Assembly (NCBI RefSeq): GCF_004923255.1
Contig: NZ_QYRT01000012.1
Coordinates: forward strand, 1-64,000
Length of the DNA: 64,000 nt
From: Subtercola vilae
GTDB lineage: Bacteria > Actinomycetota > Actinomycetes > Actinomycetales > Microbacteriaceae
Direction: 5' to 3'
Numbering within the stretch: the stretch's first letter is position 1; the number at the start of each line of letters is the position of its first letter. The notes below the pieces were generated by a model. It was not told the origin of the DNA. It saw only the letters and a program-made list of their open reading frames with translations, and made no database searches. The position numbers and the translations under genes are program-made. Shown here in pieces: positions 19,127 to 33,143 of the stretch.

Positions 19127-19909
19127 ATGGATCTCCAACTAGCCGGCAAAACGGCCATCGTCACCGGCGCCAGCAAAGGCATCGGCCTCGCCATCACAAC
19201 CGCCCTCGTGAACGAGGGCGTCACCGTGATTGCGGGCGCACGTTCGTCGTCGGCAGAACTGGAAGCGCTCGGCGACGCAGTCCGGTTCATCCCCGTCGAT
19301 CTTTCCACCTCCGACGGCCCCGCCGCGCTTGTTGCAGAAGCCGGCGACGGCCTCGACATCCTCGTCAACAACGTCGGCGCGCTCGTACCCCGCACAGCCG
19401 GATTTCTCGCCATCACCGATAGTGACTGGGACGTCACCCTGAACCTTGACCTGATGGCCGTCGTGCGCACAACCCGCGCCGCCATCCCACTACTGATAAA
19501 GCGTGGCGGCGGGACCGTCGTCACAATCAGCTCCGTGAACGCGTTTCTCCCCGACCCCGGCGTCATCGACTACTCCGCCGCGAAAGCCGCCGTCTGGAAC
19601 CTCTCCAAATCCCTCTCCAAAGAATTCGGCCCCCAAGGCCTTCGCTTCAACACCATCAGCCCCGGCCCGGTCTCCACCCCACTCTGGTTAGGTGACACTG
19701 GTGTCGCCGCGACAGTCGGCAAAGCCATGGGCGTATCCGCAGACGAAGCACGCAAACGAATCATCCAATCCGGCGGTGGATTCGCCACCGGACGCTTCAC
19801 CCAACCCGACGAGGTCGCCGACCTCGTCCTCCTCCTCACCAGCAACCGAGCCGGCAACGTCACCGGCGCCGACATCCGCATCGACGGCGGGTTCACGAAA
19901 GAACTATGA
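19127..19909 (+). CDS. Short-chain dehydrogenase/reductase
   Basis: 260-residue classical SDR: NAD(P)-binding TGASKGIG near the N-terminus, NNVG motif, Ser-Tyr-Lys catalytic set (SSVNAF, YSAAK) and C-terminal GADIRIDGGFTKEL. The ATG at 19127 follows GAAGGA. Downstream of the hydrolase with a 97-base gap. Substrate unknown. Confidence 0.88.
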   Translation: MDLQLAGKTAIVTGASKGIGLAITTALVNEGVTVIAGARSSSAELEALGDAVRFIPVDLSTSDGPAALVAEAGDGLDILVNNVGALVPRTAGFLAITDSDWDVTLNLDLMAVVRTTRAAIPLLIKRGGGTVVTISSVNAFLPDPGVIDYSAAKAAVWNLSKSLSKEFGPQGLRFNTISPGPVSTPLWLGDTGVAATVGKAMGVSADEARKRIIQSGGGFATGRFTQPDEVADLVLLLTSNRAGNVTGADIRIDGGFTKEL

Positions 19910-20220
19910 CGACCAGGCGCCCCATCGCGATACAGACGGTAAGGCTGTCAGTCGAGCCGCCTGTACCTGCCCTAAGCCTCGATTAGGGCAGGTTCAGTCG
20001 CTCGAATGAACCCGTAAAGCTGACGTATGGTCCGTTATCAGCGCGTTTGCGTCTTGCGGCCGTATGCATCGGATCAGTAGTGGTGCGATGTTCTCCATAA
20101 ATTTCAGCTGCGTGCCACGGCAGGGCGTCATGCCCGACCGCGTGGCTCCCGGCGACCGCTGGACGCCGGACTGACAAGCTTTAAATGCGCCGAAGGACAC
20201 TGAGCCTGCGCATGCACTCG
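19910..20220. other. Gene-free stretch between SDR and defence cargo
   Basis: No gene can be supported. GC content drops from here to the right. A palindrome-like segment CTGCCCTAAGCCTCGATTAGGGCAG (arms CTGCCCTAA/TTAGGGCAG, about 19967-19991) can form a hairpin and may be the terminator of the SDR transcript. The change in composition suggests a junction between two acquired segments. Confidence 0.45.
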
Positions 20221-21051
20221 CTAAAGCGTAGGCTCTCCGCTCGCCTTCTGCTCCTGCCAGGCGTCGCTGGGAGAAGTTGCGCTGTCAACGCTCTCGCGCT
20301 CTCCACCGAACTCTTCGTGCAGCGGTGTACCGACAGGGGCTGACCAAGCTCTTGCCTTATTTCGGAAGACAGTCTCGCTGACGACGACATCTTCAGTGAA
20401 AAGCTCTTCAGGCAGTTCGAGCAGCCCGGTCGTCCTCATGTTGCGGGTGACATTCAAAGTCGCAATAGTCAGCACCATGATGAAGCCGACAATCGGTGCG
20501 GCGGCTTTGAACCGCTCTTTCACGCCATGCATCTTCGTCGCCGCGAGGCGGTCGACATCGTTGTGCACGATATCCCCGTAGATGTAGGCAAACGCCAGTT
20601 CTGTATCGCTGAGGAATTCCGACTTGTTCCCGTCAGCATCCTCAATCTGAGTGCTGGCGCCGAGAATGTTTTTCCCCTTCGGCTGTATCCGATTCCAATC
20701 CGAGCGAATCGCAGCGAGGGCGTTCCGAAGCTTTTCGTCTCCGCTATCCTTCGCAAAATACCCGAGAGCGTTCAGAACTTTGATGTAGTGAACGCTATCT
20801 TCTTGAAGGATCAGGGGTCGCACACGTGCAGCGGCGGACTCCACCTGCTCTTCGGGTGGGAGAACCTGAATCAGGTATCCCTGATTTTCAGCTGCGACGA
20901 ACTGGTAAGTCACCTCCATTCTCCAGAGCTTTTGGAGGAGGGCTTTGTCGACAGCCAGTGAATGTGCTTCCACACGTCTTGCCCTCAAGACGAACGCCGA
21001 CAGAGTAGCGATGTGGCGTTCCTCAACTTGCTGCTTACGGGCGTCATTCAT
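20221..21051 (-). CDS. Unknown protein divergent from the type IIL enzyme
   Basis: 276-residue protein of no family I recognise. The first 160 residues look soluble and helical (AVDKALLQKLWRMEVTYQFV, LRNALAAIRSDWNRIQPK). One possible membrane helix follows (about residues 195-215, AAPIVGFIMVLTIATLNV), then a charged tail. The ATG at 21051 is 68 bases from the divergent restriction-modification gene, so the pair shares a promoter region. It could be an accessory or control protein of that system; this is inferred from position only. Confidence 0.6.
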   Translation of the reverse strand: MNDARKQQVEERHIATLSAFVLRARRVEAHSLAVDKALLQKLWRMEVTYQFVAAENQGYLIQVLPPEEQVESAAARVRPLILQEDSVHYIKVLNALGYFAKDSGDEKLRNALAAIRSDWNRIQPKGKNILGASTQIEDADGNKSEFLSDTELAFAYIYGDIVHNDVDRLAATKMHGVKERFKAAAPIVGFIMVLTIATLNVTRNMRTTGLLELPEELFTEDVVVSETVFRNKARAWSAPVGTPLHEEFGGERESVDSATSPSDAWQEQKASGEPTL

Positions 21052-21118
21052 ACCGTCATTCTTCCCGACTCGACCGACGCTCCCGTGGTGAACATCGCTC
21101 GGTCCGTAAACTGAGCGG

Positions 21119-23980
21119 GTGACTTCCGGGGATGCAAAAACAGGCGTTGAACTCTCACGCCAGAAAGCTCGAATCTTTGCCGACAAATGGGCAACGGTGA
21201 CTAATGAGAAGCAGTTCGCCCAGTCTTTCTGGAGCGACTTCTTTCACCAGGTCATTGGCGTGGAAGACCTGCTTGCTACGGGAGTGGACTTCGAATTCCC
21301 GATAAAGAATGTTGCTACCGGAACCACGAATTTCATTGACGTTCTGTGGGGCGGCGTAGTTCTGATTGAGCACAAGTCCGCAGGTAAGTCGCTGGACAAA
21401 GCCGAAGTTCAGGCTCGTCAATACATGGTGAGCCTCAGCCCACACCTGCGACCGCCTATTCTTATCGTTTCCGACTTTGCCAATATCCGCATCATTGACG
21501 TGCTGCGTGGAGCCAGTATTCAGTTCCTGCTCACCGACCTTCCGAAGCACCTTGATCACCTTGATTCGATCTTCAAGGTGTACGGGTCAAAGGCGACAGC
21601 AGAGGAAATCGACGCCGACATCAAAGCCGTCAATTTGATGGCGAACCTCTATGTCGAGTTTGAAAAGAACGGCTACGAGGGTCACGCTGCCAGCGTGTTC
21701 ATGGTTCGCATCCTCTTCCTCAATTTCGGTGATGACACGAGGATGTGGAAGAAGGGTCTCTTCGCTGAATTTTTGGCGGAGAGTGCCGAATCGGGAGGGG
21801 GTCTGGGTGGAAGTATTCAGGAACTTTTTCAGGTTCTGGACACCCCCAAAGAGAAACGTCCGCACAACCTTCCTGCGTCCATCTCGAATTTTCCGTATGT
21901 GAATGGCGGGTTGTTCAAGGAAATCATTCCCGTCTTCTCGTTCAACGCAGAGATGCGAACAGCACTTATTGCGTCAAGCTCATACGACTGGTCAAAAATC
22001 AGCCCTGCCATCTTCGGAGCAATGTTCCAGACCATCAAGAGCAAGGAGAATCGGCGGGCGTTGGGCGAGCACTACACGAGCCAGCAGAACATTTTGAAGG
22101 TCATCCGACCGCTCTTCTTGGACGAGTACTTGGATCGACTTCGCAAAGTCTGGGATGACCGTGCTGGACTCAAGAAGCTTCGCAAGGACCTCGGCACCAA
22201 GAACTACCTCGACCCCGCTGCAGGCAGCGGCAACTTCCTTTTGGTCACCTACAAACGGCTAAGGGACATAGAGTACAAGATTATCGCTCGACTGATCGAG
22301 CTTGAAGGAAAAGTAACGACAGGTTACGACGGTGAAGAGCTTCAAGTCGGTCTGGATGGCTTGGGAACCATCGGTCTTACAGTCAGCCTCGAGCAATTTC
22401 ACGCCATTGAATACGAGCAGTGGAGCTCGCAGATCGCTTCGGTTGCGATGTACCTCGCTGAGCATCAGGCGAATCAGGAACTGGATGAGCTGACTGGTGC
22501 AGCTCCAACGATTTTCCCGCTCTCGCACGCAGCAACTATTCGTCAAGGCAACGCTTTGCGAATCGACTGGGCCGAAGTCTGCCCGATGAATAACGACACG
22601 ATTATCATGGGCAACCCTCCGTTCTACGGCTCCTCCTGGTTGAGTGCAGATCAGAAGAACGATCAGGCTCTCGTCTGGGGCAAGACGAAGAGTGCGGGCA
22701 TCCTGGATTACGTTGCGAGCTGGTATCTCGTCGCCGCCCGCAACATCGAAGGCACAACCGCACGAGCTGCCTTCGTCTCCACAAGCTCCATATCTCAAGG
22801 TCAGCAGCCGCCCGTCATATGGGGAGCATTGAATAAGCTCGGCATGGGCATCGACTTCGCCCACCGCACTTTCGCCTGGAACAACGACGGTGGAAAGAAC
22901 GCAGCCGTCCACTGCGTCATCATCGGCTTCTCTGCCAACAGGAAACCTTCTCTTCGCCCGTTGTGGTCTTATCCCAGCCTGAAAGCCGAACCTGTTCTGG
23001 TTCGTGTCAAGAATATAAACGCCTACTTGCTGGATGCCACTGACGCTCTAATTACGAGCCGAAGCAATCCGCTTCAAGGCGGAACCCAGAAGATGACGAA
23101 CGGCAACAAGCCCGTTGATGGCGGACTACTCTCCAACATTTCCGTGGACGAAGCTCAGGAGATCGAAGCGACTGACTCCATAGCTACGAAGTACCTGAGG
23201 CGTGTGGTTGGCAGTGCTGAACTCATCGGCGGCATTCTTCGTTACGGTCTATGGCTCAAGGACGCTGACCCCTCCGACCTGCTCGCGTCCCCTGTGTTGA
23301 AAGAGCGTATTGCCAAGGTTCGTGAAATGCGTCTGGCTTCTACAAAACTGGACACCCAGAAGTCAGCAACACGTGCTTGGGAATGGCAGCAGGCTCTTCG
23401 CCAGCCCACAACTGAGTACCTAGCCGTACCTCGTGTTTCGTCGCAGGAGCGGGAGTATGTCCCGATGGCGGTAATGCCCGCAAAGGTGGTTCCGAACGAC
23501 AAGCTGCTGTACATTCCGAACGCCACCTCCGAGACCTTCGGAGTCATGATGAGCAGCGTCTTCAACATCTGGAATCGGGCCATCTCTGGTCGGTTGAAGT
23601 CTGACTATTCGCTGTCCGCTGAGGTCACCTACAACAATTTCCCCTTCCCCGATTTAAGCAATGAAGCGACGATGAAGAAGGTGCAGTCCGCTGCTGATGC
23701 AGTTCTTCTCACACGCGAGCAGTTCCCCACCAGCTCCCTCGCCGTACTCTATAACCGCAACTCAATGCCTTCGGCTCTCCGCAACGCTCACAACGCTCTG
23801 GATAAAGCTGTACTGAACGCTTACGGGCTGAAGACCAATGCAACCGATGCTGGCACGCTGGAGCTCCTTTTTGGCATGTACGCGGAGATCACGCAGGGTC
23901 TTCTCGCTCCTGAAAAGAAGACGAAGATGCGCGGAGCTGCACCTACCGACGACCTGAACTCACACGTCCTAAATCACTGA
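21119..23980 (+). CDS. MmeI-like type IIL restriction-modification enzyme
   Basis: 953-residue single-chain restriction enzyme and adenine methyltransferase of the MmeI group. The nuclease motif D74-X9-E84-X-K86 (FIDVLW then LIEHK) has the MmeI spacing. A helical linker follows, then the methyltransferase with motif I LDPAAGSGNF (about residue 364) and motif IV NPPF (N499). The C-terminal half is the target-recognition region with FPFPDLS near residue 840. Such enzymes cut about 20 bases from an asymmetric site and protect by methylating one strand, so no separate methylase is needed. Length and motifs are complete. Confidence 0.9.
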   Translation: MTSGDAKTGVELSRQKARIFADKWATVTNEKQFAQSFWSDFFHQVIGVEDLLATGVDFEFPIKNVATGTTNFIDVLWGGVVLIEHKSAGKSLDKAEVQARQYMVSLSPHLRPPILIVSDFANIRIIDVLRGASIQFLLTDLPKHLDHLDSIFKVYGSKATAEEIDADIKAVNLMANLYVEFEKNGYEGHAASVFMVRILFLNFGDDTRMWKKGLFAEFLAESAESGGGLGGSIQELFQVLDTPKEKRPHNLPASISNFPYVNGGLFKEIIPVFSFNAEMRTALIASSSYDWSKISPAIFGAMFQTIKSKENRRALGEHYTSQQNILKVIRPLFLDEYLDRLRKVWDDRAGLKKLRKDLGTKNYLDPAAGSGNFLLVTYKRLRDIEYKIIARLIELEGKVTTGYDGEELQVGLDGLGTIGLTVSLEQFHAIEYEQWSSQIASVAMYLAEHQANQELDELTGAAPTIFPLSHAATIRQGNALRIDWAEVCPMNNDTIIMGNPPFYGSSWLSADQKNDQALVWGKTKSAGILDYVASWYLVAARNIEGTTARAAFVSTSSISQGQQPPVIWGALNKLGMGIDFAHRTFAWNNDGGKNAAVHCVIIGFSANRKPSLRPLWSYPSLKAEPVLVRVKNINAYLLDATDALITSRSNPLQGGTQKMTNGNKPVDGGLLSNISVDEAQEIEATDSIATKYLRRVVGSAELIGGILRYGLWLKDADPSDLLASPVLKERIAKVREMRLASTKLDTQKSATRAWEWQQALRQPTTEYLAVPRVSSQEREYVPMAVMPAKVVPNDKLLYIPNATSETFGVMMSSVFNIWNRAISGRLKSDYSLSAEVTYNNFPFPDLSNEATMKKVQSAADAVLLTREQFPTSSLAVLYNRNSMPSALRNAHNALDKAVLNAYGLKTNATDAGTLELLFGMYAEITQGLLAPEKKTKMRGAAPTDDLNSHVLNH

Positions 23981-24004
23981 ACGCGGCGGCCAGCGTCGAT
24001 ATGG

Positions 24005-24142
24005 TCAATTCATGACAGTTAAACATGGACATCGGCTATCGCCTGCGGCGAGCAGAATGTCCTCGTTGACGGCCTCGCGTCTGACCCAGAGATAAATGGT
24101 CGCGTCCGAGATCCCAAAATCGGGACTGCTGACGGCTTTCGG
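24005..24142 (-). pseudogene. Transposase relic (IS3 OrfA-like helix-turn-helix)
   Basis: A 45-codon minus-strand frame between two stops reads DFGISDATIYLWVRREAV, the recognition helix typical of IS3-family OrfA proteins. There is no start codon or rest of the transposase. It marks a past insertion between the restriction-modification gene and the hypermodification-like pair. The exact family is a guess from a short peptide. Confidence 0.45.
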
Positions 24143-24187
24143 CTAACAGCTACGATCCAGATGAGTTGACTTTGAGGGTGGGACGCA

Positions 24188-25729
24188 ATGAAGTATAGGA
24201 ATGCCTCCGCGGCGATGATCGCGAAGCTCGATCAACTCCTTCTCACCGGTGTTGAAGTCAGCGTTCGTGGATCAGAAACTCGTGAGTTGATGCACCAGCT
24301 GGTTTCTCTGACCAAACCTTTGGAGCGCTGCATTGTTGTTCCAAGTCGAAACAACAACGTGTTCGCCTCGATAGCAGAAACAATGTGGGTGATAGCGGGC
24401 CGCAATGACATCGCATACCTCGCAAACTACCTGCCCAGGGCAGCCAACTTCTCTGACGACGGTAAGACGTGGCGAGCCGGCTACGGACCGCGCCTTCGAC
24501 AGTGGCATGGCGTCGACCAACTCGGGTCCGTCCTCAACACCCTCGCCGACTCACCATCCAGCCGCCGCGCCGTGATGTCGATCTTCGATCCCGCAGCCGA
24601 TTTGCTCGACAGCCTCGACATTCCCTGTACTAACTGGTTGCACTTCACCGTCCGAGACGGTCACCTCGACCTCAACATCGCGGTGCGCAGCAACGACATC
24701 ATTTGGGGGTTCTCGGGTATCAACACGTTCGAATGGAGCGTTGTTCAGGAAATGATGGCCTACTGGCTTGGCGCGAAAGTCGGGATAACTAACTATTTCA
24801 TCTCGTCGCTACATCTTTACGCACGGCATTTCGACCGGGCGACTCAGGTCGTCTCGCAGCCGCCAGTCCCGTCGCCATACACACAACACCCAGCGGTCAT
24901 CCGATTTGACACCCGATTCGGCGACCTCGAGCAGACTCTCGACAGATGGTTCGAGCTTGAAGCGGCCATCCGCGACGGGGCAAACGTCACCAATCGCATC
25001 GATAGCTTCCCAGATCCGATGTTGCGAGATTTTCTTCGAATGCTTTCCGCGTACCGGTCATTCGTCGAAGGCGACACGGCTGCAGCGACCAAGATTTTAG
25101 ATGGCGTCGAAGACGGCGCCTTGGCTACCGCGGGATCCGATTACATCTCGTGGAAGACTGCGACCCCGTCCCGATCTGTCGTACTTGCGGCGCCCCCAAG
25201 AATCTCCAAAGCAGAAATCACCCGATGGCTGAGTCAACTTCACCGCACAAAATCTCTTGCCTATGGCGACAGCTGGAAGCGGCGCGGAGAGCAGATGGCC
25301 ATCATGGCCAACATCGCAAGAAAAATCGATCGGCTTGCGCTTCACGATCCCAACATTCCATCAGATGGCGAAAATATCATCGATACAGCTGCGGACCTGC
25401 TGGTCTATTCCGTGAAGTACGAAACCTACCTCAACGACGTGAACGGCAAACCCCGGCGCGACGCGGCTGCCTGGAGCGACGGAACCGATGGTTTTGATCT
25501 GCTGATGCAACAAATGCAGGCCGAAGCAGTGGCTGCGACTCATGCGGAGGCGACGGCTGACGTCATGGAAGTATTCGAGCAGCTCGAGCGCACGTTCACA
25601 CCAGACACTGGTCCCGCATCCCGCCGCCAACTCGTGCACACCCTCGGCACCCGGGCGCTCGAACTTCTGCAATTTCACCTCCACAAAAACCCTGCCGCTG
25701 CCTATCGCGTCATGGCGTTCGAGGAATGA
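24188..25729 (+). CDS. Thymidylate-synthase-like enzyme fused to DUF1599 (Nmad1-like)
   Basis: 513 residues in two parts. Residues 1-230 are a thymidylate-synthase fold: PSRNNNVFASIAETMWVIAG, catalytic Cys147 in DIPCTNWLHF, and RSNDIIWGFSGINTFEW, equivalent to the RSxD nucleotide-binding loop. Residues about 345-425 match DUF1599/nucleotide-modification-associated domain 1 (SLAYGDSWKRRGEQM, then IARKIDRL and IIDTAADLLVYSVKYETYL). The usual QFYV/LPPC surroundings of housekeeping ThyA are altered, pointing to a pyrimidine hydroxymethylase or other dUMP/dCMP C5-modifying enzyme rather than dTMP supply. The next gene, 82 bases on, is a 5-hmdU-DNA-kinase-like protein. Exact reaction unknown. Confidence 0.82.
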   Translation: MKYRNASAAMIAKLDQLLLTGVEVSVRGSETRELMHQLVSLTKPLERCIVVPSRNNNVFASIAETMWVIAGRNDIAYLANYLPRAANFSDDGKTWRAGYGPRLRQWHGVDQLGSVLNTLADSPSSRRAVMSIFDPAADLLDSLDIPCTNWLHFTVRDGHLDLNIAVRSNDIIWGFSGINTFEWSVVQEMMAYWLGAKVGITNYFISSLHLYARHFDRATQVVSQPPVPSPYTQHPAVIRFDTRFGDLEQTLDRWFELEAAIRDGANVTNRIDSFPDPMLRDFLRMLSAYRSFVEGDTAAATKILDGVEDGALATAGSDYISWKTATPSRSVVLAAPPRISKAEITRWLSQLHRTKSLAYGDSWKRRGEQMAIMANIARKIDRLALHDPNIPSDGENIIDTAADLLVYSVKYETYLNDVNGKPRRDAAAWSDGTDGFDLLMQQMQAEAVAATHAEATADVMEVFEQLERTFTPDTGPASRRQLVHTLGTRALELLQFHLHKNPAAAYRVMAFEE

Positions 25730-25811
25730 CCAAGGGCCGGCGTCCACGCCCGTCGAAACGGATATCTAACCCACGCCGCAGCTACGATGAGGCAACGGCA
25801 AAGGAGCTCAC

Positions 25812-26810
25812 ATGACTAGCCCAACCCCGCGCCCCCACGCTTTCGACATCTATTGGCAATTTGCCCACGAACGCCACCGAATCTTTCAGTCGCGCCTCAC
25901 CCAACAGGTTGGCCCATGGACGGACGACCGCATCCTGCGGACCTACAAGTTCTGCAACGTCTACCGCGCAGCAGACAGAGTCAGTCAATATATGATCCGG
26001 AACGTCTGCTACAGCTCTAACGACATCAGCGAAGCAGACAGAGTCTTCCAAATCGTCGCCTTCCGCACCTTCAGCAACATCGCGACCTGGGACTCCTTGA
26101 CCATGTTGCTCGGCCAAGCTCCAGTCGTCGAAGACATCCGCAACGGCCGGCTAGAAGCGGCACTTACGAGCATCCGTGACAGCGACAAACGCCTCTACAC
26201 GGGCGCCTTTATTCTCTGTGCAACGAACGCCTACGGTCGCGGACTAAAACATCTCAATCACGTCGAACTCTTTCGACACATGTTCGTTCAAACCACGCTG
26301 GCTGAAGAAATCCTCGAAGCACCATCGCTAGCGGCGGTATATGCGCTCCTTCACAAGTACCCACTGATGGGCGACTTCATGTCCTACCAAGTGGCGATCG
26401 ACCTCAACTACTCAGAACTCATCCACTTTTCCGAGAACGACTTCACCCAGCCAGGGCCCGGAGCTTTGAGAGGCATCAAGAAAGTGTTTTCGAGTACCGG
26501 CGGAATGACGCCCAGTGACACAGTCATGTGGATGGTCGACAACCAAGACACCGAGTTCGAACGGCTCGGTCTCGATTTTGATGGCCTCTGGGGTCGCCCT
26601 ATCCAAGCCATCGATGCGCAGAACCTTTTTTGCGAGACGGACAAATACTGCAGGGAGGCCCTGCCGGAGCTTGCAAGCGCCCGAACTCGCATCAAAGCCA
26701 AGTTCGTTGAGTCAGCAGAGCCAGTGTCGCTGTACTTCCCGCCAAAATGGGGTATCAACGAGTCTCTTCCCGCCGCCCTTCCGCAAATGCGACAACTCGC
26801 GCTCTTCTAG
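25812..26810 (+). CDS. Putative DNA base hypermodification protein (5-hmdU DNA kinase-like helical domain)
   Basis: 332 residues. The pattern FAHERHRIFQSRL, RTYKFCNVYRAADRVSQY, FRTFSNIATWDSL and the C-terminal YFPPKWGINESLPAALPQM matches, from memory, the helical family annotated as 5-hydroxymethyl-dUrd DNA kinase/alpha-glutamyl-putrescinyl-thymine pyrophosphorylase-like. In hypermodified phages such proteins act on 5-hydroxymethyl-pyrimidines in DNA. No separate P-loop is visible, so kinase activity is not assured. Its place directly after a thymidylate-synthase homologue supports a two-step pathway: make a 5-substituted pyrimidine, then modify it. An HMM search would settle the family. Confidence 0.7.
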   Translation: MTSPTPRPHAFDIYWQFAHERHRIFQSRLTQQVGPWTDDRILRTYKFCNVYRAADRVSQYMIRNVCYSSNDISEADRVFQIVAFRTFSNIATWDSLTMLLGQAPVVEDIRNGRLEAALTSIRDSDKRLYTGAFILCATNAYGRGLKHLNHVELFRHMFVQTTLAEEILEAPSLAAVYALLHKYPLMGDFMSYQVAIDLNYSELIHFSENDFTQPGPGALRGIKKVFSSTGGMTPSDTVMWMVDNQDTEFERLGLDFDGLWGRPIQAIDAQNLFCETDKYCREALPELASARTRIKAKFVESAEPVSLYFPPKWGINESLPAALPQMRQLALF

Positions 26811-27081
26811 CTCGTCCCGGGCTACGCGCTCGAGCGCGGACCGCTCATGCGAGTCGCGCTGAGGGTGCTTTTCAACAAAAGACCATCCTCTCGTTCGGTC
26901 GGGCAGACGTCGCTGACAGAGCTAACTTGTGTTGATGATGACGGACGACTGCTTGCGGACATAGGCTCGTGGGCCAGGCGCCCTACGACGATCAACGCTG
27001 ACGTGAGCCCGTCCTTCCTAGAGGGCACGAGCAGCTGGACGATACCCGGTCCTAGCTCGAAAGGTCCCTAAACCTGAATAG
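26811..27081. other. Intergenic region between convergent blocks
   Basis: 271 bases between the hypermodification-like pair and the convergent Nmad2 gene. A 74-codon plus-strand frame from 26847 has no ribosome site and no recognisable features; I do not call it. No clear terminator is visible. Confidence 0.4.
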
Positions 27082-27726
27082 TTACGTCTGCACCAGCGAA
27101 GAAGTTCCCGTGCGTGTGCTGCGCATGTTGCGGGTCCGATGCCAATCAAAAGGCGTTCCTATTGGGCCACGAGGTAACTCCGCAAACCACTCTAGGGCCA
27201 GACTAATCTCGTCATCCTCAAATCTGTTTCGGTGACCGCGACCGCTGACGATGCCGAACTCGCGAAGTAGGGTCGGCACAATCGGCCCGCTGCTTCCGAA
27301 GTAAACGAAGTCATCGCTGACAAGCACTTTTTCGGTGGTCCCCGTATCGCGTGAGAGATGAACCAGCTCCGGCGTGCCGTCCGCCTTGCTGTGCCTTGAG
27401 TCCTCTTGAATCCAGTTTCCAGATGAATCGTGATGATAAATATTGTCACCAAACCGAACCTGACGGCTCCCGCGCAGATTTGGACGCTTTCGTTCGAATC
27501 GCTTATCGGACCAATACTCATCGAACGACAACGTTTCGGTGACCCGCATGGCATACACCAAGAACCCGGTTCGCCTGTTCTTGGCAGCGCCAGTCCCCAT
27601 CACCCAGTCGCCGACGCTGGCGCCTCGGCGAATTATTTGCTTGCAGGTCGCCAGCGTGCAAAACCCTTGAAACGGATTAGGCGCGAAGCCGATGTCGTGA
27701 TCGACGACGTAACTATGAAGTCTCAT
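27082..27726 (-). CDS. Nucleotide-modification-associated domain 2 (Nmad2) protein
   Basis: 214 residues. The N-terminus MRLHSYVVDHDIGFAPNPF, GFCTLATCKQIIRRGASVGD and the stretch FDEYWSDKRFERKRPNLRGS, FGDNIYHH match the Nmad2 family that Aravind and colleagues linked to DNA base modification gene clusters. The fold is thought to be EVE/PUA-like, a reader of modified bases; this is known of related families, not shown here. It is the second gene of a two-gene unit behind a TIR-like gene, six bases apart. Its base-reader link fits the neighbouring hypermodification-like pair. Confidence 0.72.
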   Translation of the reverse strand: MRLHSYVVDHDIGFAPNPFQGFCTLATCKQIIRRGASVGDWVMGTGAAKNRRTGFLVYAMRVTETLSFDEYWSDKRFERKRPNLRGSRQVRFGDNIYHHDSSGNWIQEDSRHSKADGTPELVHLSRDTGTTEKVLVSDDFVYFGSSGPIVPTLLREFGIVSGRGHRNRFEDDEISLALEWFAELPRGPIGTPFDWHRTRNMRSTRTGTSSLVQT

Positions 27727-27732
27727 GCGTAT

Positions 27733-28194
27733 TCAGCAAGGGGCCCGTGGAATGGAATGAGGCGCGGTCGGAGCGCCGTCTGGGTCGGTCCAGTGTTCGT
27801 TTTCAAGGGCGTCAATAATCAATTCGGCGTCCCAATTGATTATCGAATCAGCAAAGTCTTCGAGCTCTTCCGGGAGATTATCTGCAGTAGTCCCAGGTGC
27901 CCACACGCCGATAATCTTCTTGTCAGGGAACTTTCTTGCGTATTCGATTTCCCAATCCACCCAGTCGTGGTTGTAGGTTTCCGGGGATACGATGACGATC
28001 ATCTTCCCCGCCCAGTCAATTCGGGCCCTCAGCAGACTCCTGATGTACTCCTCATTGTGAGCGTCGTTAGGATTATCTGTCGTGATCGACGAATCCCGAA
28101 TCTCAGCCCCGCTTTTCGCGAGCATCGATTTCAGCTCCCCCACCAGGTGATCGTCTTCATGCCTATGGGCTACAAAGATGTTGTGCGCGCTCAT
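27733..28194 (-). CDS. TIR-like protein (MTH538/ThsB group)
   Basis: 153 residues. Opens with NIFVAHRHEDDHLVGELKSM and has IDWAGKMIVIVSPETYNHDW then WVDWEIEYARKF, the layout of the MTH538 TIR-like domain used by Thoeris ThsB. The Glu in WVDWE (E82) is the likely catalytic residue for NAD+ breakdown. A short acidic C-terminal tail follows. It leads the Nmad2 gene and is divergent from a second TIR gene; the 77-base gap between them must hold both promoters. A canonical ThsA (SIR2-SLOG) is not nearby. Confidence 0.8.
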   Translation of the reverse strand: MSAHNIFVAHRHEDDHLVGELKSMLAKSGAEIRDSSITTDNPNDAHNEEYIRSLLRARIDWAGKMIVIVSPETYNHDWVDWEIEYARKFPDKKIIGVWAPGTTADNLPEELEDFADSIINWDAELIIDALENEHWTDPDGAPTAPHSIPRAPC

Positions 28195-28271
28195 CAGTAC
28201 TCCTCGTTAGAGATAACATACGACGAACCGCTGACAACTGCTCAACACGCAACGCATGGAAGGCCGCTGGG

Positions 28272-29480
28272 ATGCCCATACCCCCAATTCTTGACGTCTT
28301 CGTCGTATGGCATCCCGACGACGAGGGGGGTGTGAAGCGCTTCAGAGAACTGCAGGACCATTTCCACAGTTCGGCGTTCTCGGGGCTTGTCGGCGGAGCG
28401 GTCGAGGTCTACGCCAGAAGCGAAGCCTGGTCGACAGATGGGGCACCACGACCGTTCGGTATCCGCACCCCGCTCGCCGACGAACTACCTGCTGCGCAAT
28501 TCAACGCAATCGTCCCCGTGCTCAGCAAAGAGATGGCGCGCGCTGCCGCAAGTGGAGGCTGGAAACAATTCATTGCCGAAATAGGAGCTCTCGCTGACCT
28601 TCCGGGAGTCGGCGTATTCTCTCTCCCCTCAGCGGGTGTTGACCTGCAAAGCGGCGCGTTATCTGTAGCCCTTGGCCCCTTCCAGGTATTGCCACAGGAC
28701 GTTGTGGAGAACCCGAAAATGCTGGGCCGGGAATTGGATCAAGCGATCGCCCAGAAAATTCGCAGCGAGGACGACCAGGCGGCGCGAATCACCGTGTTCG
28801 TCAGCCATTCAAAGCACCGGTCGCTCAGCGAAGACGACGAGGCGCCCGCCATCTATTCATTGGTCCGCGAGCGGATTGCCGAATCGCGGCTTGCAGAATT
28901 CTTTGATGCCCACGACATTCAGGTAGGCGACAGATGGGTCGAGGAGCTTGAGCAGAATGCGAGCGAGCACGCACTCTTGATAGTGCGAACTGACCGTTAC
29001 GCGGAACGTCCGTGGACGCAGCGTGAGGTAAAGGCCGCCAAAACCGCTGAAGTTCCGGTCGTGACCATGTACGCCATTCGGTCTGGCGAGCAACAAGGCT
29101 CATTCCTTATGGACCATGTGCCGACGGTTGTGTGTGACCTGGATAATCGCATACCGGGCATAGAGGCCGCCCTCGATGCCCTCGTAACGGAAGCCCTCAA
29201 GAGCACGCTTTGGAATGCGCAACGGTCCTACCTGAAGGCTGATGGCTTTGACTGGTTGCCAGCTCGGTCACCTGAACCAACCACGATCGCATCATGGTTA
29301 ACCACTCACAAAGCTGAGCATCCCGACGATCAACACATCTGGATCATGCATCCAGACCCTCCGCTAGGGCAAGCGGAGCGCGATGTGCTCATTCAGATGG
29401 TCGAGCTCGCGGGATACTCCGACGACGTTAACATTTATACGCCACGCACATTCGCTGCTAGAGGCGGAGAAGTGAAATGA
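28272..29480 (+). CDS. Double-TIR domain protein
   Basis: 402 residues. Residues 1-125 look like a degenerate TIR fold (PILDVFVVWHPDDEGGVKRF, then FNAIVPVLSKEMARAA). Residues 173-290 are a clear TIR domain: ITVFVSHSKH, FFDAHDIQVGDRWVEELEQN, and RPWTQREVKAAK with probable catalytic E252. A C-terminal segment of about 90 residues is unassigned. TIR enzymes cleave NAD+ or make ADP-ribose signals upon infection. Translation is coupled to the next gene (SLOG) by a four-base overlap, so the pair probably acts as producer and receptor. Confidence 0.8.
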   Translation: MPIPPILDVFVVWHPDDEGGVKRFRELQDHFHSSAFSGLVGGAVEVYARSEAWSTDGAPRPFGIRTPLADELPAAQFNAIVPVLSKEMARAAASGGWKQFIAEIGALADLPGVGVFSLPSAGVDLQSGALSVALGPFQVLPQDVVENPKMLGRELDQAIAQKIRSEDDQAARITVFVSHSKHRSLSEDDEAPAIYSLVRERIAESRLAEFFDAHDIQVGDRWVEELEQNASEHALLIVRTDRYAERPWTQREVKAAKTAEVPVVTMYAIRSGEQQGSFLMDHVPTVVCDLDNRIPGIEAALDALVTEALKSTLWNAQRSYLKADGFDWLPARSPEPTTIASWLTTHKAEHPDDQHIWIMHPDPPLGQAERDVLIQMVELAGYSDDVNIYTPRTFAARGGEVK

Positions 29481-30316
29481 ACGACCCAGAGGTCATCGCG
29501 CTCGGAACACTGAACGAAAAACGCGTGGCGCTTTCAGCATCAGAAAGCGCTGATCTCGGCAGGCTTGGGCTGAGCGAATACCACTGTCGACTGGTTATAG
29601 CTGAAGTTGGGCGGGCGCTTATGTTAGCCGGAGCCACAGTCGTCTACGGCGGTAACCTGTCTGCCGACGGGTACACCGACATACTCCTCGAAGAGGCCCA
29701 ACGCTTCGGAGGATCTCGTCAGTTGCTCGAACTGACAATCCCCGAGTCCGAATACACCAAACATACCGTTTCTGAACTAAATAAGATCGACGGCCGCCTC
29801 GGGGAGCACGGAAAACTGGTTCTCATCCGTTCCGATTCTGTCGTGGTGCAGATACGAGACGCGGTCACAACATCCTCGACACGGGTAGATCTATCTCAAT
29901 CGCTTTCAGCTATGCGAGCGTATACCTCAACTAATACGGACGCCCGTGTCGTAGTAGGAGGAAAGCTGACGGACTATCAAGGCCGATTGCCAGGCGTAAT
30001 TGAAGAGGCTCTACTGACGGCGGAGGCAGGCAAGACCTTGCTTGTGGCAGGCGGCTTCGGCGGAGCCGCAACCGTGATATCAAATGCCCTGAACTCCGAA
30101 GCAACCCAAGGATGGCAACCGCCGAATTTTCCAGTCCATGCGCACAGCGCGACGATGGAAGCTGCACTTGGCCGGCTAAAAACGTCTCGCCCCTACGTAG
30201 GAAGTGAAGACGAATACGCAGACCGCCTTCGTAAGGTGCTAGCGGTGAGCCACAGACCTGCAGACATATCGACCTCCGTCATCCGCTTGCTAGCCGCCTC
30301 CTTCGAGGAAAGTTAA
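29477..30316 (+). CDS. SLOG-family protein coupled to the TIR gene
   Basis: 279 residues with two SLOG/LOG-like halves: VALSASESADLGRLGLSEYH and VVYGGNLSADGYTDILLEEA, then ARVVVGGKLTDYQGRLPGVI and LLVAGGFGGAATVI. SLOG domains bind nucleotide-derived ligands; in Thoeris ThsA the SLOG domain senses the cyclic ADP-ribose signal made by TIR proteins. No separate effector domain is seen, so it may be receptor only, or may hydrolyse or sequester the signal. The start overlaps the TIR stop in an ATGA junction. Confidence 0.78.
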   Translation: MNDPEVIALGTLNEKRVALSASESADLGRLGLSEYHCRLVIAEVGRALMLAGATVVYGGNLSADGYTDILLEEAQRFGGSRQLLELTIPESEYTKHTVSELNKIDGRLGEHGKLVLIRSDSVVVQIRDAVTTSSTRVDLSQSLSAMRAYTSTNTDARVVVGGKLTDYQGRLPGVIEEALLTAEAGKTLLVAGGFGGAATVISNALNSEATQGWQPPNFPVHAHSATMEAALGRLKTSRPYVGSEDEYADRLRKVLAVSHRPADISTSVIRLLAASFEES

Positions 30317-30671
30317 CCATCTAACTACTTCTGTGTGTATGACTCGGGGAGCTTCCCTGACACTTCGTTGTCAGGAATTCCTTTACACCCTAACGATTCG
30401 TCTATCGGCGACGCCACAGCAGCGGACTGCGCCTCGCCGTCTCGAAAACCTAAACCTTAACGAGGCATATTGCGCCGCCGGTGACCAGTAGAGAAATGTC
30501 CAGAGAATCCGCAGATGCGGCTTGTCTCAAAAACTCATCTTACAATCACGCCTGTCTCCCTCCTGTTTCTAGGGGTTTCTAAGACAGGACGGCTGTGGGA
30601 GCTTGGGGATGACAGGGAAGGGCCGTTCCAGAACTATCGACATCCTTTAGACCCCTGCTTCGCTGCCCGGT
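30317..30671. other. Gene-free stretch with two inverted repeats
   Basis: 355 bases without a supported gene. At 30356-30375 a hairpin CCTGACA-CTTCGT-TGTCAGG can end the TIR-SLOG transcript. At 30523-30534 and 30575-30586, TGTCTCAAAAAC and the inverted TGTCTTAGAAAC (10 of 12 matching) face each other 40 bases apart, a layout like crossover sites of serine recombinases. The recombinase reading is only a suggestion. Confidence 0.45.
30356..30375 (+). terminator. Hairpin after the SLOG gene
   Basis: Seven-base-pair perfect stem CCTGACA/TGTCAGG with a six-base loop, 40 bases after the SLOG stop, followed by AATTCCTTT. A plausible terminator without a full T-run. Confidence 0.5.
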
Positions 30672-31019
30672 CTACAGTCCAAGAACGAGTCGAATTCCCG
30701 AACTGATCTCGGAGAGTAAATACGAGGGAACGTGGCCCGCCGGATAGGGATCGAGGAACTCGCGGCTGACTGGCCCGACCTGGGAGACGACGGCGACGGA
30801 GTCCTTCTCGAGCCCCGACGCCTCTGCAGGAAGCAGAACGTTGCCGGGAAACGCCTCAAGTCCGATGTTCGAGGTCAGTGGAACGACCTGCACCGTGGCG
30901 ATGCTCGTTGCCAAGAGCCAGTCTTCCTGAATCACGACCGCCGGCCGAACTTTCGCCGGTTCCAACCCCCTCGGCGTGCCGAAGTCGACCCAGACGACAT
31001 CGCCGCGCGCCGTCACCAT
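30672..31019 (-). CDS. mazF: MazF-family toxin (PemK-like endoribonuclease)
   Basis: 115 residues. The PemK/MazF features are present: RGDVVWVDFGTPRG, KVRPAVVIQED, VVPLTSN, and SQVGPVSREFL. MazF toxins cut mRNA at short sequences and halt growth when the antitoxin is lost. The gene follows its antitoxin with a seven-base overlap. Its place next to attR suggests an island-retention role. Confidence 0.88.
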   Translation of the reverse strand: MVTARGDVVWVDFGTPRGLEPAKVRPAVVIQEDWLLATSIATVQVVPLTSNIGLEAFPGNVLLPAEASGLEKDSVAVVSQVGPVSREFLDPYPAGHVPSYLLSEISSGIRLVLGL

Positions 31020-31258
31020 TCGGTTCCATCACGCATCACACGCTGCGACTCACGCAGGAACAAGCCGTCACCCGATGGTTGCCCCGTGCGAGCCAGGACC
31101 GCATTCGCAATCGCAGTGAGTTCCGACGCGCCCTCCAACTCGTCGGCGAGCCGTTGCGCAGCAAGTCGGTAGAACTCCGACCGGTTCATACCATGCTTGT
31201 CGGCCACACGCTCGAAACGCTCGAAGTCACCGTTGGGAACTGATATCGCCGTCTTCAT
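31013..31258 (-). CDS. mazE: Ribbon-helix-helix antitoxin of MazF
   Basis: 81 residues: an N-terminal ribbon-helix-helix (TAISVPNGDFERFERVADKH, NRSEFYRLAAQRLADEL) followed by a toxin-binding tail. Start ATG 31258 is embedded in an inverted repeat that is the likely operator, so the gene pair should be autoregulated. Upstream in-frame starts give a non-conserved leader and are rejected. Confidence 0.82.
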   Translation of the reverse strand: MKTAISVPNGDFERFERVADKHGMNRSEFYRLAAQRLADELEGASELTAIANAVLARTGQPSGDGLFLRESQRVMRDGTEW

Positions 31259-31270
31259 ACTTAGAGTATG
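31256..31270. promoter_or_regulatory. Palindromic operator at the mazE start
   Basis: Perfect inverted repeat CATACT-TAG-AGTATG overlapping the mazE start codon. A related half-site CATACC follows at about 31277. This is the expected binding site for the ribbon-helix-helix antitoxin and would allow repression of mazEF. Confidence 0.65.
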
Positions 31271-31412
31271 ACCATTCATACCAGATGACGGGAGTAAATA
31301 GGCGCGCCCACGAAATGCCCGCAAACGTGCATGAACGATGCACATCTCAGGTGATCACCTAAGACGCGACTTCCGCACCATCACTGGAAAGACCCATCGA
31401 AATCAGGGGCCT

Positions 31413-31443
31413 TCGTCGGTTCGAGCCCGACGGGGCCCACCCC
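31413..31443 (+). repeat. attR: 31-bp direct repeat of tRNA-Lys 3' end
   Basis: Exact copy of 14698-14728 in the same orientation, standing alone without the rest of a tRNA. It closes the genomic island. The stop codon of the next chromosomal gene (GH13 hydrolase) lies only 11 bases further. Confidence 0.92.
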
Positions 31444-31454
31444 TAATTGTTCAG

Positions 31455-33143
31455 TCAGAGTGACGTGATCAGCCAGGCCGTGGTCGAGCCTGGGAGGAAG
31501 CCCTGTTCGAGCGGTGCGCTCGAAAGGAGCAGCTCCCCCGCCGGCAGAACCACAGGCGACGAACCGAAGTTCGTGACTGATGTCCAGCCGTTCTGTCTCC
31601 GGAACGTCAGAACCGCGTCGGCGCTCGTCTGCAGCCATTCGAGGGACTCGTCACACTGCAACCGCTGCCGTAGCGCAAGCGCACCTCGGTAGAGCGAAAG
31701 AGTAGAACCCGCGTCACTCCCCTGCGCTTCGACCGAAAGCCGACCGAACGACGCCGGTTGCGGCAGGTGAGCCGCCTGGCTACTGAATCCGAAGGACGGG
31801 CCTGACCCAGTCCAGGGCATCGGTATCCGACATCCGTCGCGACCGATATCGACACCCGGATTGCGATAGAAGACGGGGTCCTGCCGACTCGCGGGTGGCA
31901 GGCTGGCGACTTCGTGCAGACCAAGCTCTTCACCTTGAAAGAGGTACGACGAGCCCGGCAGAGCGAACTCGAACAATGTGGCGGCGCGGGCCCGCCGCAG
32001 GCCCAATTCGGAATCGAGAATGGGCACCTCCCCACCGCTGAGCAGCCATTCGCGACCCTGTTTGTCTGGCCGCCCCGCGAGCGGGGGGAGACCATAACGG
32101 GTCGCGTGTCGCACCACGTCGTGGTTCGACAGCACCCAGGTCGTAGAGGAACCTGATTGGGCGGCAAGATCGAGATTGAATGTCACTATACGTCGGAACG
32201 ATTCGGCTTCGAAGTCCGCCTCGAGAAGATCGAAGTTGAAGGCTTGGCCGAGACCCTCGGCACGGGCGTAACGAACACGCCGCGATGGATCCACCCATGC
32301 CTCCGCAACAGCGGTACGCGGCGGGTCGTACGTGTTGAAGACTGTGCGCCATTCTGCATAGATGTCGTGAACTTCATCGCGATCCCACAGGGGGTGCGTT
32401 CCGTCCCTCGGCATGACGTCGAGTTCGGCCTGAGAGGGTAGTTCTAACGGCAGTTCCTTCGCGAGGCCGTGGGCGACGTCGATTCGAAAGCCATCGACAC
32501 CCCGATCAGCCCAGAACCTCAGAGTGCGCAGGAAGTCATCGCGAACCTCACGATTCTTCCAATTGAGGTCGGGCTGTTCCGCTGCGAAGTAGTGCAAGTA
32601 CCATTGGCCATCACCTGCGGCTGTCCACGCGGATCCGCCGAAAATCGAGGTCCAGTCAGCAGGAGGGAACTGACCGTTCTCGCCGAGACCGTCACGGAAC
32701 AGATATCGCTCTCGCGCGACGGAGCCCGGGGGCGAATCCAGTGCCTCTCGAAACCACTCGTGTCGGTTCGAGGTGTGATTCGGCACGATGTCGATGATGA
32801 TGCGGATGCCACTCGAACGCAGCGCAGCTACCATCTCATCGAAGTCGCTGAGTGTACCGAGGTTGGCGTCGACAGTGCGGTGATCGTCGACGTCGTATCC
32901 GCCATCGATGAGCGCCGAGGGGTAGAACGGGCTCAGCCACACGGCGTCAATTCCCAGCGCCTTCAGATAGGGCACCCTTTCGGTTACTCCGGCGAGGTCA
33001 CCGATGCCGTCACCGTTCGAATCGGCGAATGAGCGCGGATAGATCTGATAGACCGCCGCCTGACGCCACCAGGCATCTCTGTTCGGGCGGAACGGAGCGC
33101 CGGGCTCGATCGTCTCACGGATGATCATGTTGTTCTCGGTCAC
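31455..33143 (-). CDS. GH13-family alpha-glucosidase
   Basis: 562-residue cytoplasmic glycoside hydrolase of family 13 (oligo-1,6-glucosidase/alpha-glucosidase type). Conserved regions: VYQIYPRSFADSNGDGIGDL, IDIVPNHTS, nucleophile Asp in GFRIDVAH, acid Glu in AVAEAWV, and LSNHDVVRH with the third catalytic Asp. It hydrolyses alpha-linked oligosaccharides. It sits 15 bases after the HisD-family gene in the same operon, next to a sugar-type ABC importer. The end nearly touches attR. Confidence 0.9.
   Translation of the reverse strand: MTENNMIIRETIEPGAPFRPNRDAWWRQAAVYQIYPRSFADSNGDGIGDLAGVTERVPYLKALGIDAVWLSPFYPSALIDGGYDVDDHRTVDANLGTLSDFDEMVAALRSSGIRIIIDIVPNHTSNRHEWFREALDSPPGSVARERYLFRDGLGENGQFPPADWTSIFGGSAWTAAGDGQWYLHYFAAEQPDLNWKNREVRDDFLRTLRFWADRGVDGFRIDVAHGLAKELPLELPSQAELDVMPRDGTHPLWDRDEVHDIYAEWRTVFNTYDPPRTAVAEAWVDPSRRVRYARAEGLGQAFNFDLLEADFEAESFRRIVTFNLDLAAQSGSSTTWVLSNHDVVRHATRYGLPPLAGRPDKQGREWLLSGGEVPILDSELGLRRARAATLFEFALPGSSYLFQGEELGLHEVASLPPASRQDPVFYRNPGVDIGRDGCRIPMPWTGSGPSFGFSSQAAHLPQPASFGRLSVEAQGSDAGSTLSLYRGALALRQRLQCDESLEWLQTSADAVLTFRRQNGWTSVTNFGSSPVVLPAGELLLSSAPLEQGFLPGSTTAWLITSL

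Follow-up and report, generated by a model that had tools for sequence, protein, structure and literature searches.

Positions 24188 to 30316 of the window, which is the first 64,000 nucleotides of contig NZ_QYRT01000012.1 of Subtercola vilae (assembly GCF_004923255.1), carry six genes that probably form an anti-phage system with a modified DNA building block as its mark or signal. The first two encode a thymidylate synthase (TS) homolog with an extra C-terminal domain (gene 1) and a protein of the HMUDK_hel family (gene 2), and the others an Nmad2 protein, a ThsB-like TIR protein, a second TIR protein and a SLOG protein. The pair most likely makes a nucleotide derived from 5-hydroxymethyl-deoxyuridine (5hmdU) that is used in anti-phage defense, with TIR signaling as the readout. 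The protein families, active-site residues, TS clade, conserved gene order and co-varying divergence described herein were computed from the sequences. An initial annotation had placed two open reading frames at 24188-25729 (513 amino acids) and 25812-26810 (332 amino acids), and both are intact at exactly these positions, on the same strand and 82 nt apart. It had also linked both proteins to phage modification genes, whose cassettes do contain relatives of the two, and had placed them next to restriction and TIR genes in a defense-like island; both views were borne out. It missed, however, that the Nmad2, ThsB-like TIR, TIR and SLOG genes (27082-30316) belong to the conserved unit.

Gene 1 is a non-housekeeping TS that lies outside the ThyA group. 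Its residues 51-232 match PF00303 in Pfam (E 5.4e-24), and the profile is accompanied by the nucleophile Cys, catalytic Glu, phosphate Arg and base Asn of the TS superfamily. The nine active-site residues checked, E64, R126, C147, R167, S168, D170, N179, H209, and Y211, are all kept in gene 1 and are invariant across eight aligned TS proteins, among them the host ThyA (encoded elsewhere, on contig C60), M6 gp058, a Kuttervirus TS and LuckyBarnes gp41. The best PDB matches of the TS domain were two sequences of the CMP 5-hydroxymethylase MilA (9.3e-32 and 1e-31), the best ThyA being found at 1.4e-17. Both Trp residues of the ThyA stretch IWNEW are replaced in the window protein (A85, F88), and an (F/Y)SDDG stretch is common to the window, M6 and Kuttervirus enzymes. 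In a tree of 36 rows, the window TS fell within a 15-row group (support 98/96) made up of 11 TS-plus-C-terminal-domain proteins, three other bacterial TS and that of phage LuckyBarnes. This group is nested in one of 19 rows (96/91) together with the Kuttervirus TS and three TS from viral contigs; phage ViI, with which the cassette is compared below, we take to belong to the genus Kuttervirus. The ThyA side, consisting of six ThyA, including that of the host, and a T4-like td, was separated by a 100/100 branch with a length of 3.23.

The likely substrate could be derived from the specificity rules of the MilA paper, which assigns uracil to enzymes with Asn at the position of N179, and deoxyribose to those with Ser and Arg at the positions of S168 and R126. 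Because gene 1 has precisely this pattern, dUMP is its predicted substrate, instead of the CMP used by MilA, the enzyme of the mildiomycin pathway that is the closest solved relative of the window domain. From these residue rules and from the tree group that includes phage proteins, gene 1 is predicted to be a dUMP 5-hydroxymethylase.

The remaining part of gene 1 is a real and conserved domain, as the initial annotation had proposed, but its assignment to DUF1599 failed: PF07659 gave no match in gene 1 at E<=1, none in two relatives that share the domain (loci L026 and L030), and none at E<=0.001 in the host genome, while the control genome of Bacteroides ihuae was matched. The domain stands in place of the ThyA C-terminal tail, which seals the active site and is absent in the T4 dCMP hydroxymethylase. 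It is conserved in the window protein and eight aligned relatives, with the motif LHxxKxxxYxxxWKxxGE...RKxDR, and also exists as a stand-alone gene of ~195 amino acids, which adjoins MazG genes in L029, L030, L034, and L035, and as a MazG fusion (L032, L036, and L055). No similarity was detected between the domain and the MazG profile, and its PHROG matches were weak (phrog_22490, 9e-8; stand-alone form, 4.8e-8).

Gene 2 matches HMUDK_hel (PF18723) almost from end to end (profile positions 2-280 of 281, E 1.1e-97). The family to which it had initially been likened was correct, while the activity suggested by the 5-hmdU kinase name was not supported. A Walker A pattern was found in none of the 99 family rows (90 distinct), and PF18748, the 5-hmdU DNA kinase, did not match gene 2. 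Lacking a P-loop, gene 2 does not read as a kinase, and in phage M6 the kinase is a separate protein, gp054 (PF18748), while gp055 is the PF18723 protein (8.1e-56; 24% identity to gene 2 by BLASTP, 5e-19) and gp051 the amino acid:DNA transferase (PF18724, ADDT). Most of the annotated plasmid relatives are labeled "nucleotide kinase domain-containing protein," a name that these results suggest is misleading. In the M6-like phage SN1, consecutive locus tags are given for Nmad5, aGPT-Pplase1, a nucleotide kinase, rSAM, a PLP enzyme and aGPT-Pplase2 (PMC9476957). Since this list matches the M6 order in reverse, gp055 corresponds by position to aGPT-Pplase1, which makes gene 2 a protein of the aGPT-Pplase1 type. 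Profile comparison gave a weak link between HMUDK_hel and ADDT (E 2.4e-4 with a probability of 43% in one direction, 2.1e-3 and 13% in the other), with all 22 decoy comparisons at E>=0.023. There was no signal between HMUDK_hel and the HhH-GPD DNA glycosylases, a weak negative, as the glycosylase rows include spurious N-terminal stretches.

The gene 2 family is rare, being found in six of the 396 genomes sampled from the phylum of the window, the host included, and in four of 369 in a class sample centered on a known carrier, again included. Phage LuckyBarnes carries both a TS, which aligns over both domains of gene 1 (35%, 2e-97), and an HMUDK_hel protein; between them are two genes annotated as glucosyltransferases, an enzyme not found among the scanned proteins of the window island.

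The pairing of the two genes is conserved. A scan of genome contigs yielded at least 519 confirmed relatives of gene 2, and the best 80 loci, 11 of them shorter than 12 kb, were analyzed; being the best-scoring ones, they describe close relatives and not the whole family. A TS was counted at >=150 bits with a two-domain profile that also scores the stand-alone C-terminal domain. This leaves out L041 (81 bits) and L119 (69 bits), whose scores are below the ~99-110 bits that loci fetched as distant TS matches, ThyA-like where checked, reach with the same profile. In the 80 bacterial loci, a TS was present in 22, a divergent TS-like family that we term TS2 in 25, either of them in 43, MazG in 37, and any of the three in 63. 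Among viral loci, 16 of 22 had a TS and 18 of 22 a TS or TS2. Also found in the bacterial loci were a TylF O-methyltransferase (25/80), Nmad2 (20/80) and Nmad2 together with ThsB (18/80), and the full Nmad2-ThsB-TIR-SLOG set stood beside HMUDK_hel in nine, plus L011 and L012. The order seen in the window, with TS-HMUDK_hel followed by divergent Nmad2-ThsB and then TIR-SLOG, recurs in Microbacterium album (L026), Glaciibacter superstes (L027) and a metagenome-assembled genome (MAG) of the Propionibacteriaceae (L028). In L011, L012, L039, and L042, HMUDK_hel is accompanied by the same four genes with MazG replacing the TS.

The genes of these loci also diverge together. Pairwise distances among the HMUDK_hel proteins correlated with those of the full-length TS (r=0.87, n=22), TylF (0.93, 26), MazG (0.79, 44), TS2 (0.77, 33), ThsB (0.75, 22) and Nmad2 (0.59, 24), and in each case none of 2000 permutations was as high; shared genome ancestry contributes to these values and was not removed. 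In a control of 165 kb (the remainder of the window, 40 kb from the same contig and 21 small loci), nine of the ten cassette hidden Markov models (HMMs) gave no match. The exception was the TS-domain model, which matched seven control loci, all of them fetched as distant TS and five of them ThyA-like and used as ThyA in the tree. Because the gene order recurs elsewhere and the models of the accessory genes were silent in the control, the association goes beyond chance. One further locus (L209, 7787-11751) brings together HMUDK_hel, a TS without the C-terminal domain, a gene of the thymidylate kinase family (PF02223, 1.5e-9) and a ThsB-like TIR.

Features of the island and its surroundings (positions in the window, except where a locus is given)
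Position	Strand	Feature	Basis
20221-21186		321-aa open reading frame on the strand opposite to the MmeI gene, whose start it overlaps	
21119-23980		MmeI-like type IIG restriction-modification enzyme, upstream of the cassette	Pfam
24188-25165	+	TS-superfamily domain of gene 1 (residues ~1-326), predicted dUMP 5-hydroxymethylase type	PF00303, PDB matches, residue alignment, tree
25166-25729	+	C-terminal domain of gene 1 (residues ~327-513, approximate boundary)	conservation in relatives
25812-26810	+	Gene 2, HMUDK_hel (PF18723) protein without P-loop	PF18723, 1.1e-97
27082-27726	-	Nmad2 (nucleotide modification associated domain 2) protein	PF18753, 5.1e-70
27733-28194	-	ThsB-like TIR protein, conserved W81-E82, C-terminal Cys153	ThsB_TIR, 6.6e-21; PADLOC ThsB (PDLC00418), 9e-50
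28272-29480	+	Second TIR protein, TIR at residues 175-258, conserved W248...E252	TIR_2, 4.4e-7
29477-30316	+	SLOG protein (LD_cluster2), start overlaps TIR stop by 4 nt	PF18163, 9.1e-46
30672-31345		PemK/MazF-like toxin gene, with a gene judged from its position alone to be a probable antitoxin; at the right-hand limit of the low-GC region	
L102:9120-9944		TS2 example	

The second half of the island begins with Nmad2, which lies directly downstream from the ThsB-like TIR gene on the same strand. Both TIR proteins keep a Trp and a Glu, W81 and E82 in 22 of 22 ThsB rows, and W248 and E252 in nine of nine rows of the second TIR. This Glu has a role in NADase activity, and because the W and Glu residues are kept, both proteins could be NADases. 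In the ThsB proteins paired with Nmad2, a Cys lies no more than three residues from the C terminus in all 22 rows (20 distinct). It is lacking there in the majority of the 14 lower-scoring TIR rows, and no obvious Shine-Dalgarno site explains the one in the window protein. We rejected the idea that a sequence "RGG" near the C terminus of the second TIR is a conjugation tag, since its codons form a purine-rich stretch resembling a Shine-Dalgarno site, immediately ahead of the SLOG start that overlaps the TIR gene. Comparison of Nmad2 with the EVE profile gave no signal, although this is a weak negative, the EVE set having only three rows. In a 198-genome sample of the phylum of the window, Nmad2 was found only in the host, and in a class sample centered on a Variovorax carrier it was found in five of 321 genomes, one of these loci having ThsB and MazG.

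The island stands out in composition, with a GC content of 0.54-0.57 across 20-30 kb, compared with 0.60-0.69 in the other 2-kb steps of the window. The 321-amino-acid open reading frame at its left could not be assigned to a family with Pfam, PHROGs, PADLOC or NCBIfam at the cut-offs applied. A search of 19500-32200 revealed no long direct repeats flanking the block, so that repeats gave no boundary.

A second architecture was recognized among the relatives of gene 2, composed of an ACP-like gene (a label assigned by eye, as Pfam gave none), XRE, an IrrE peptidase, TS2, HMUDK_hel, MazG, AcpS and DCD. Although none of the four TS2 members scanned matched PF00303, the TS2 profile aligned to the TS-domain profile with a probability of 97.9% (E 4.4e-13), the four other profiles being at E 0.11 or worse. 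A Sinorhizobium protein named thymidylate synthase by RefSeq matched the TS2 model at 3e-84. IrrE accompanies TS2 in 23 of its 25 loci, and in the other two TS2 sits at the contig edge.

TS proteins were also found in other surroundings. On an Apilactobacillus kunkeei plasmid (L212, 3905-10243), a TS that shares 43% identity with the TS domain of gene 1 is next to a gene annotated as DNPH1, three ATP-grasp proteins and an MFS transporter, an arrangement that resembles a natural-product cluster; in total, 13 Apilactobacillus records were matched by the TS search. In E. coli, a cassette of a phosphoesterase, MazG, a TS and a fourth protein that matches TS only below the threshold was found on a plasmid (L211, 6852-9783) and on a chromosome (L215, 7038-9984), and four of 5426 genomes had a place covering >=80% of the query. 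The fourth protein of this cassette was considered as a TS2 and rejected, as the TS2 model gave no match and PF00303 only one below the cut-off (E 0.0069). HMUDK_hel is not among the annotated genes of this cassette, and distant DNA searches in E. coli gave no HMUDK_hel or TS match, only two matches to a GIY-YIG gene.

How the island might work, from the reaction product to its incorporation into DNA, its reading by Nmad2 and the TIR response, we infer as follows. The TS domain would transfer a one-carbon unit from methylene-tetrahydrofolate to dUMP, giving 5-hydroxymethyl-dUMP, which host kinases would convert to the triphosphate for incorporation by DNA polymerase. HMUDK_hel, possibly a distant relative of the phage transferase family and not a kinase, would then elaborate the 5-hydroxymethyl group. 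Nmad2 may bind the modified (or wrongly modified) thymine and control the neighboring ThsB-like TIR, and the second TIR and the SLOG protein may produce and detect a signal made from NAD by which the infected cell is shut down. The parts of this scheme differ in strength. That the cassette makes a 5-substituted dU nucleotide is highly probable, and that it serves in defense is probable; the findings support both the enzymes for such a nucleotide and a conserved, defense-like gene set that distant bacteria have in common. Whether the whole of 24188-30316 is a single anti-phage cassette, with one half that modifies pyrimidines and a TIR half that reads the mark, we regard as close to an even question, and a mechanism in which a DNA mark is written and read is a tentative preference. 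The most far-reaching form of the proposal, in which phage-type enzymes place a hypermodified thymine in the bacterium's own DNA and Nmad2 couples wrong thymine chemistry to a TIR/NAD shutdown, appears rather unlikely.

Several observations weigh against the scheme. No TS, TS2 or MazG was found within the fetched flanks of 17 of the 80 HMUDK_hel loci (Clostridia, Bacilli, and Patescibacteria MAGs among them, and two being contigs of <4 kb). The TS of M6 itself is not part of the 19-row group and instead clusters with bacterial TS from other cassettes (84/77). By sequence, no solved relative of HMUDK_hel was found, and profile comparison linked neither HMUDK_hel nor Nmad2 to a known fold. PF18748 and PF18724 had no match in the host genome, so that a complete M6-type pathway was not found there; as they matched no control genome either, this does not prove that the two proteins are absent. 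Moreover, a dUMP modified at the level of the pool would mark replicating phage DNA as well, so that self and non-self could be told apart only on incoming DNA, and the XRE and IrrE genes of the second architecture suggest induction rather than constant marking.

One alternative is that the modified nucleotide is a small molecule induced by infection, either a poison dNTP or an alarm nucleotide sensed by SLOG/TIR, and not a DNA mark. The partners of the relatives include pool enzymes (MazG/MazG_C, the dCTP-deaminase-like DCD and TylF) as well as the XRE/IrrE regulators, SLOG and TIR are nucleotide-handling folds, and the context of the Apilactobacillus plasmid TS indicates that the TS group of the window can serve free-nucleotide chemistry. 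However, the HMMs applied detected no MazG, TylF, XRE or IrrE gene in the window, and the relatives of HMUDK_hel sit in phage DNA-modification cassettes, where modification is described as post-replicative on 5hmdU, thought to be a common intermediate in M6, ViI, and phiW-14 (PMC6449724). We consider the small molecule somewhat unlikely and tentatively prefer marking and reading of DNA, because phage cassettes contain the same pair that makes up the modification half, no pool enzyme or regulator of the second architecture was found beside the window cassette, and Nmad2 lies directly behind a TIR gene.

It is improbable that the modification pair and the Nmad2-ThsB-TIR-SLOG genes are two independent defense systems that share an island, even if each half has been seen alone: Nmad2 is absent from 60 of the 80 HMUDK_hel loci, and all five Nmad2 loci of the Variovorax-centered sample have no HMUDK_hel in the fetched flanks, so that the halves can occur apart. 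A type IIG restriction-modification gene and a MazF-like gene, which lie within the low-GC region or at its border, might likewise speak for a simple gathering of systems, but of the loci listed, L011 alone showed a relative of the MmeI-like gene. Against independence stand the identical six-gene order in Microbacterium, Glaciibacter and the Propionibacteriaceae MAG, the four loci in which MazG takes the place of the TS, the co-varying distances, and the presence of TS, TS2 or MazG in all 20 Nmad2-positive loci, which were selected through HMUDK_hel. Finally, the clear phage relatives, the low GC and the plasmid-borne copies among the relatives could be explained by a mobile element or prophage remnant that marks its own DNA against host restriction, as hypermodified phages do. 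No phage structural protein or integrase was found by Pfam among the nine island proteins scanned, though, and with no flanking repeat and TIR and SLOG genes of immune type, this origin seems highly improbable.

Compared with known systems, the island shares a TS-superfamily enzyme and a PF18723 protein (gp058 and gp055 in M6) with the hypermodification cassette of M6 and ViI, which consists of a TS-type hydroxymethylase, Nmad5, aGPT-Pplase1, 5-hmdU DNA kinase and ADDT. It differs in being bacterial, in the extra C-terminal domain of its TS, and in its union with Nmad2 and TIR/SLOG. Like Thoeris (a ThsB TIR and the effector ThsA), it combines a ThsB-family TIR with a SLOG protein in a single conserved unit, but its SLOG is an LD_cluster2 protein without SIR2, and the second TIR, Nmad2 and modification genes are added. 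No SIR2 or ThsA match was found in the scanned island proteins, STALD reaching only E 0.15, below the cut-off.

The initial view that the pathway is undescribed was only partly right. TS and "5-hydroxymethyluracil kinase" domains are among those of the E. coli systems that were found with DefensePredictor and validated as protecting against phage; in that 2026 report, a figure legend names TS, dNMP kinase, 5-hmdU kinase, and NMAD domains, and Burroughs et al. 2015 is cited for the earlier prediction of several nucleotide-modifying domains in defense (PMC13092281). The likeness to the island is by domain names, and the text consulted does not state which of the domains share an operon. The coupling to TIR proteins is the part that still appears new: within a partial coverage of the literature, with key work of the Aravind group outside it, no description of a TS/HMUDK_hel pair joined to Nmad2 and TIR/SLOG was recognized.

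If the proposal is true, the cassette joins the modified-base chemistry of phages and the TIR immunity of bacteria, two fields that have been kept apart, and in the most far-reaching form of the proposal it would represent an analog of restriction-modification in which second-messenger immunity, in place of a nuclease, is the "restriction" arm. The analysis also exposes TS2 as a divergent TS-like family, and the cassette makes it possible to test directly whether 5-hydroxymethyl-dU-derived nucleotides are used by bacteria in defense.

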